NCBI RefSeq assembly: GCF_015864945.1
Contig: NZ_JADYWF010000002.1
Span: forward strand, 124,001 to 188,000
Direction: 5' to 3'
Length of the DNA stretch: 64,000 nucleotides
Source: Salinibacterium sp. NG253
GTDB taxonomy: Bacteria; Actinomycetota; Actinomycetes; Actinomycetales; Microbacteriaceae
Shown here: in pieces, positions 36,789 through 37,135 of the stretch
Layout: the number at the start of each line of letters is the position of its first letter
How positions within the stretch are numbered: the first letter of the stretch is position 1
Position numbers and translations under genes: made by a program
Notes under the pieces: generated by a model
Databases searched by the model: none
The model's input: the letters and a program-made list of their open reading frames with translations, nothing else
Told to the model about the DNA's origin: nothing

Positions 36789-36893
36789 CGGGAGTGCAGC
36801 TTCGCGTCCTGAGGGAGGGCGTTTGCGGTGAAATGTCAGTGGCTGAGGGTAGATTTAAAGAAAATTGGCCGACACGCCGAGACACTACATCTG

Positions 36894-36928
36894 GGGTAAT
36901 GACATGGGTGTCATTACCCATATATAGT
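36894..36928 (+). promoter_or_regulatory. Promoter with a perfect 11-base inverted repeat (micropeptide gene)
   Basis: GGGTAATGACA (36894-36904) and TGTCATTACCC (36909-36919) are perfect 11-base arms around TGGG. The left arm supplies an ATGACA -35 element (36899-36904), and TATAGT (36923-36928) is a -10 element 18 bases downstream. A repressor or activator bound to the repeat would control the small gene that follows. A second nested repeat ATGGGT/ACCCAT lies inside it. Confidence 0.7.
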
Positions 36929-36982
36929 GAAATCTCCGACAAACCGCCGGAAAACTTCTAGAAGACTTTTAAGGAGGATCGA

Positions 36983-37066
36983 ATGGATAACGAAAACGAC
37001 ACCGTTGGCGGATATGCAATTCCCGTCGACCCAATGGATCTTCTGCAGTGCGACAGCTGCCAGTAA
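36983..37066 (+). CDS. 27-residue micropeptide ending in Cys-Asp-Ser-Cys-Gln
   Basis: A perfect ribosome binding site AAGGAGG (36971-36977) lies five bases before an ATG that opens 27 codons and a TAA. The peptide starts MDNENDTVGGYAIPVDPM, is acidic (no Lys or Arg), has no membrane segment, and ends LLQCDSCQ with a C-x-x-C pair at residues 23 and 26. The 10-base palindrome CTTCTAGAAG sits in the 5' leader. It has its own promoter and terminator and no modification enzyme beside it except the upstream methyltransferase. It could be a RiPP-like precursor, a metal- or redox-responsive peptide, a signalling peptide or a leader. I do not recognise it. Confidence 0.75.
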   Translation: MDNENDTVGGYAIPVDPMDLLQCDSCQ

Positions 37067-37098
37067 AAACTTACTGAGCTAACGCCTCACAGAATTTC

Positions 37099-37135
37099 TG
37101 AAGCCCCGGCAGACCTCACGGTCACCGGGGCTTCA
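37099..37135 (+). terminator. Strong terminator hairpin of the micropeptide unit
   Basis: TGAAGCCCCGG and CCGGGGCTTCA are perfect 11-base arms with a 15-base loop, 32 bases after the micropeptide stop codon. No T-run follows. It isolates the small gene from the MaoC-murB operon downstream. Confidence 0.85.

Follow-up and report, generated by a model that had tools for sequence, protein, structure and literature searches.

The micropeptide gene and its promoter

The stretch of DNA analysed here, referred to below as the window, comprises 64,000 nucleotides of Salinibacterium sp. NG253 (C2:124001-188000 of a 2.97-Mb genome, 99.9% complete) and contains an open reading frame (ORF) of 27 codons plus stop, surrounded by the features collected in Table 1. 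The encoded peptide is acidic, carries two cysteines in a C-terminal C-x-x-C-Q that ends at the stop (CDSCQ) and, as an earlier sequence-only reading had stated and the translation bears out, holds neither Lys nor Arg. That reading had also described, packed around the frame, an 11+11-base inverted repeat overlapping a -35 element, a TATAGT -10 element, a leader palindrome, an AAGGAGG ribosome binding site and a terminator. All but the last were found again as described; as for the terminator, a GC-rich hairpin does exist, but the pattern scan finds no intrinsic terminator at that place because the hairpin lacks a T-run. The 82-nt stretch with this 3' hairpin folds at -30.5 kcal/mol (z -6.3), and in relatives GC-rich hairpins, judged by eye, likewise lie 3' of the ORF.

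Table 1. Coordinates of the micropeptide gene and its associated elements in the window
Feature	Position	Strand	Basis or remark
NrdR-like box 1 ACACTACATCTGGGGT	36882..36897	+	12/16 against the presumed consensus
Inverted repeat GGGTAATGACA-TGGG-TGTCATTACCC	36894..36919	.	between and overlapping the NrdR-like boxes
Sigma-70-like promoter ATGACA - 18 nt - TATAGT	36899..36928	+	pattern scan
-35-like element ATGACA	36899-36904		inside the left arm of the inverted repeat
NrdR-like box 2 TACCCATATATAGTGA	36915..36930	+	11/16 against the same consensus; overlaps the -10 element; 17-bp spacer to box 1
-10 element TATAGT	36923-36928		
Leader palindrome CTTCTAGAAG	36955-36964		
Ribosome binding site AAGGAGG	36971..36977	+	sequence reading
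Micropeptide gene, almost certainly a free-standing RNR C-terminal redox tail MDNENDTVGGYAIPVDPMDLLQCDSCQ	36983..37066	+	homology, genome survey, outgroup fusions
GC-rich terminator-like hairpin, no T-run	37099..37135	+	folding and pattern scan

Searched against NCBIfam, the micropeptide has no match, and against Pfam it returns a single sub-threshold zinc finger (E 0.33), a chance match. The gene is not linked to nrdA, and the neighbours that recur downstream of such unlinked copies are MaoC-MaoC-MurB, with the first MaoC at least present in 54 of 63 loci, a count in which many loci have just 1.5 kb of flank and some genomes appear twice under different names. A functional tie to the sulfur-relay flavoprotein and the methyltransferase upstream, which the sequence-only reading had proposed, was dropped, both of them flanking the gene in just two of the 63 loci (its own and that of G082).

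NrdR is described as a repressor that senses dATP/ATP and binds palindromic boxes in pairs, set roughly three helix turns from each other (PMC9110341), working best with 14-17 bp between them (PMC12051234). One gene for NrdR is present in the genome. Scored against a presumed two-box consensus, 38 of the 40 upstream regions of unlinked genes reach at least 21 of 32, with a spacer of 17 bp in 33 of the 40; the boxes are absent in two scored copies (L041 and L052), and a further region (L045), which did not match the pattern, stands outside the count. As a control, 1,992 of 2,000 random segments of the window score 20 or less and the other eight, which may coincide with the actual site, score 23, as that site itself does. 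A two-box pattern built from the genome's own two sites matches nowhere else in that genome: its two occurrences are at the unlinked tail gene and at nrdA (where 16 bp separate the boxes), and the reversed control has none. With a box pair, a spacer of 14-17 bp and an encoded NrdR, the gene has the marks of an NrdR regulon member, on a presumed consensus and with box 2 degenerate in many relatives. The inverted repeat is kept in many relatives too, and no second match to its 24-bp core exists in the genome when up to three mismatches are allowed; it may be a second operator, for another, putative regulator.

Tail-less NrdA and its linked and unlinked tail genes

The genome holds one ribonucleotide reductase (RNR) large subunit by PF02867 (class I/II). 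This NrdA has an ATP-cone and an NrdB partner and belongs to class I, not to the adenosylcobalamin-dependent class II, and its C-terminus (...GFGGFAKKAE; ...RRGFGGFAKKAE) contains no Cys and no cysteine pair. A second tail ORF, MNRENTVEDYFVPVDPMDDLQCDSCQ, starts 2 nt past the nrdA stop and is followed by nrdB. Junctions between nrdA and nrdB were readable in 54 genomes, a count that leaves out L408 and L409, which run off their contigs, and L410, which repeats G123; a separate tail ORF stands at 49 of these junctions and none at five (G053, G015, G177, G138 and G123). No Cys occurs in the last 60 residues of 48 of the 49 NrdAs, the exception being a disrupted frame (L089, from G009, 86% complete), and all 48 Cys-free NrdAs have RGFG or a similar motif within their last 40 residues.

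The cysteines that we take to be the counterparts of E. coli C225, C439 and C462 are invariant in 21 of 21 aligned NrdAs, nine of them tail-less, and these active-site positions also align with P. aeruginosa NrdA (PDB 5im3). A tail-less NrdA should still need a tail. The RNR is split in the sense that the catalytic chain lacks a Cys tail and a second chain bears one; covalent attachment of the tail to the large subunit is not what the junctions encode, since the tail is a separate ORF at 49 and lies off nrdAB at the other five.

The search with MDNENDTVGGYAIPVDPMDLLQCDSCQ across 299 genomes of the family (Microbacteriaceae) gave matches in 140 at E<=10 and in 135 at 5e-8 or better, and the five genomes in between (G033, G108, G134, G141 and G230, E 0.016 to 1.6) are treated here as lacking the peptide. 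NrdA of this type, called at E<=1e-250, is present in 125 of the 299, and every one of the 125 also has the peptide; ten genomes have the peptide without this NrdA (assemblies 77-94% complete) and 164 have neither. A single PF02867 RNR was found in 56 of the 60 genomes tested from the co-occurrence set. The unlinked copies are under purifying selection (pN/pS 0.14 over the last 22 codons; 33 unique of 36 sequences) and their mean identity is 0.91, as against 0.66 for the linked ones. The expectation of the sequence-only reading that spacer DNA would not keep such a set of elements is upheld by the matches in 135 family genomes, by this selection and by the promoter kept in 38 of the 40 scored regions. 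On these comparative grounds the micropeptide gene is confirmed as genuine and independently encoded, and its C-x-x-C does point, as had been suggested, to a thiol role.

Two or more peptide matches (E<=10) occur in 119 of the 135 genomes, which leaves room for a further function of the unlinked copy. Another reading would make the unlinked peptide an RNR regulator, for instance a decoy or redox sensor competing for thioredoxin or for the active site, with the linked copy alone being catalytic; the retention of both copies in most genomes, the stronger conservation of the unlinked one, its different promoter and its extra putative operator would all fit. We nevertheless regard such a division of labour as unlikely. 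In G053, G015 and G177 the sole peptide match is the unlinked gene, beside one PF02867 RNR each, so that the unlinked gene is expected to act in trans there, whereas in G104 and G162 the single match lies directly behind nrdA, which means that the unlinked gene is not needed everywhere; with some genomes having one copy only and others only the other, either may suffice. As to the two remaining junctions without a tail, G138 has a second RNR besides this nrdAB, and G123 has a further tail on its contig C2, at a location that corresponds to the one in a Gryllotalpicola protaetiae plasmid record.

Programmed frameshifting or stop-codon readthrough could also append the linked tail to NrdA, which would retain a tail in cis, and it is true that 40 of the 49 linked ORFs share one frame relative to nrdA and that 32 of the 49 overlap the nrdA stop. 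Stop-overlapping ORFs are, for their part, typical of coupled restarts, and the other nine ORFs lie in the two further frames (five and four of the 49), including four that follow a stop in frame 0, with spacers that vary. Since the tail ORF is thus found in all three frames, frameshifting is not the rule, and fusion was rejected as a general mechanism. The unlinked gene cannot be fused at all, five of the 54 junctions hold no tail and one virus carries its tail gene before nrdA, all of which makes a tail retained in cis very improbable.

Outgroup NrdAs carry the homologous tail in fused form. One of them, 69% identical and from a different order of the same class, ends in ...SACPIDPQERLQCESCQ, and in a 396-genome sample of the phylum all 11 readable NrdAs, out of 14 fetched (L106, L111 and L115 being left out), end in C-E-[SA]-C-Q; the sample also gave two partial weak matches (G564 and G574). 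In a 396-genome sample of the order, matches were obtained in 35 genomes that do not belong to the family; 33 of these matches lie in frames of 869-1108 aa and two in shorter ones (G758, 458 aa; G1033, 109 aa), and each of the nine long-frame loci compared aligns to NrdA. Named genomes scanned with a pattern yielded at least 119 stretches, and 80 loci were classified, some genomes being in twice under different names: among those listed, 43 lack any homologue of nrdA or nrdB within the stretch fetched, 26 are separate ORFs linked to nrdA, one lies beside nrdB with nrdA off the contig, and ten are fused, in forms such as ...PVDPMERLQCESCQ (Demequina, Demequinaceae, Actinotalea, Nocardioides, an Aeromicrobium MAG and one uncultured organism). 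In all the sets selected by pattern, that is, these named genomes, the viral stretches treated below and the tail profiles, part of the motif is fixed by construction.

The fused form of the class I tail reads PxDP...LQCESCQ, whereas here the tail is encoded in trans; an extra Cys (ACPxDP) that is found in the 11 nearest cis tails is absent from all the profiled peptides, 36 unlinked and 47 linked. In a tree of 43 NrdAs the 28 tail-less ones form one clade (100/99), with the fused forms outside, so the NrdA tail apparently split off in this lineage once. Although 27 residues carry a limited homology signal, the outgroup fusions and the gene order compensate, and from these sequences we consider it close to certain that MDNENDTVGGYAIPVDPMDLLQCDSCQ is a free copy of the C-terminal redox tail of class I RNR.

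As a side observation, the curated NrdA model NCBIfam NF005101 (PRK06539.1) appears to end without a Cys tail, and the NrdA of G109 matches its positions 1-822 of 822 yet ends in ...APRKGFGFGGVGGAR.

Tails on plasmids, phages and viral contigs

The peptide also matches 19 plasmid records, from Clavibacter (15), Leifsonia (3) and Gryllotalpicola (1), in five of which no annotated feature lies under the tail; on the three Clavibacter plasmids inspected it sits between ArdC and single-stranded-DNA-binding genes. On the plasmid of Leifsonia sp. ZF2019 (L241 4483-4584) the 33-aa tail WP_223361114.1 bears the annotation ribonucleotide-diphosphate reductase subunit beta, a name that seems to have been transferred wrongly. 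A degenerate tail copy in G141 (L097), a genome without this NrdA, and the plasmid copy on contig C2 of G123 (L102) share the ending MDELNCDSCQ, a hint that tails travel on mobile elements.

A search of 50,697 phage records gave six matches (E<=10), which belong to four phages (Clavibacter CMP1 and CN1A, Pontimonas phiPsal1 and Pseudanabaena Pan2), and three further queries of the phage records added no others. The E values are weak, from 0.005 to 2, and the matches are credited because every one is a short ORF ending CQ-stop and because Microbacteriaceae account for three of the four hosts. Viral metagenome contigs contain at least 120 stretches with the motif; all 120 of those listed translate to a tail ending at the stop, and a control with the same codons in reverse order gave no viral stretch. 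The RNR large subunit occurs in one and the small subunit in three of the 120 listed, counted within the fetched stretches rather than whole contigs, and the stretch with both has the order tail-nrdA-nrdB and an NrdA that ends without cysteines. The 99 ORFs upstream of viral tails gave clusters of 29, 25, 8 and 7, whose representatives match holin, terminase large subunit, holin and exonuclease families, respectively. In one viral stretch with the tail-nrdA-nrdB order (L322 9961-13317) nrdA carries an in-frame insertion right after its SNLC motif, intein-like in position.

It might be thought that the tails are relics, NrdA having lost its own and taking another reductant directly, and DTT-like reductants are reported to be able to act directly on RNR active sites (PMC4520616); yet the pN/pS of 0.14, the co-occurrence in 125 of 125 genomes and the upkeep of tails on mobile elements render this extremely unlikely. 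The RiPP precursor, signalling or metal-binding peptide that the sequence-only reading had entertained, which a short, acidic product with two Cys and its own promoter could call to mind, was dropped and deserves next to no credence in view of the homology to fused RNR tails, the co-occurrence with one RNR type and the recurrent neighbours MaoC, MaoC and MurB.

Proposed mechanism and known precedents

An essential enzyme thus seems to run on a detachable part, because NrdA has lost its tail and similar loose tails exist in phages and plasmids. The observations as a whole are very probably explained by a free-standing class I RNR tail that relays electrons to NrdA in trans, and the micropeptide is likely to act as the carrier from thioredoxin to NrdA (for the mechanism of the RNR tail, see PMC4390871). 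In this lineage the enzyme has shed its tail, apparently in a single event, and the tail is now encoded by a linked gene, usually in the nrdA-nrdB gap, and by an unlinked one that has an NrdR-like promoter to itself. After each turnover the active-site disulfide of NrdA would be reduced by the dithiol of a bound or diffusing peptide, whose CDSC disulfide would then itself be reduced by thioredoxin or a different redoxin. Joint control of nrdA and the unlinked tail would fall to NrdR, a separate putative regulator may act at the extra inverted repeat, and the lone tails of phages and plasmids would supply the same part to the RNR of the host.

NrdH-redoxin and glutaredoxin are small C-x-x-C electron carriers serving RNR, and are folded proteins of the thioredoxin-fold type; the micropeptide differs in being too short for that fold and has no match to such models. 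No free-standing class I tail came up in searches of the open-licence PMC literature. The closest precedent is the split class II enzyme NrdJa/NrdJb of Pseudomonas aeruginosa, in which a second polypeptide bears the Cys tail for a catalytic chain without one: as described in PMC4520616, the separate chain carries C-terminal cysteines and does dithiol exchange, NrdJa and NrdJb are both needed in vivo, NrdJb has 229 residues and the two are encoded in one operon, and NrdJ is there called the only split RNR found outside viruses. The present case differs in that the enzyme is of class I, the tail has about 20-40 residues, the gene with NrdR-like boxes is unlinked, and lone mobile copies exist. 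Phages likewise can have an RNR chain in pieces (Aeh1 nrdA-a/b, phiYS40 nrdJ-a/b), but the splits presented in PMC3653736 consist of introns, inteins or short gaps within the phage's own RNR gene, and not of lone tails in phages devoid of RNR.

RNR, an essential enzyme, has been studied intensively, and most descriptions treat its redox tail as a flexible arm of the large subunit; in the bacterial lineage described here, class I RNR appears to operate with a detached peptide of about 25 residues, which annotation frequently overlooks. On balance we lean towards a wider view, in which the tails, about 20-40 residues long, have turned into mobile and interchangeable electron-carrier subunits, kept by bacteria under dNTP-sensing control and carried alone by phages and plasmids without their own RNR, in order to drive or capture that of the host. 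If this is true, the lone mobile tails would rank among the smallest auxiliary metabolic genes. With its tail naturally in trans, the lineage would also lend itself to studies of tail movement between thioredoxin and the active site, and the detached tail, a tiny gene present in many viruses and plasmids, may be a control point for the supply of dNTPs.
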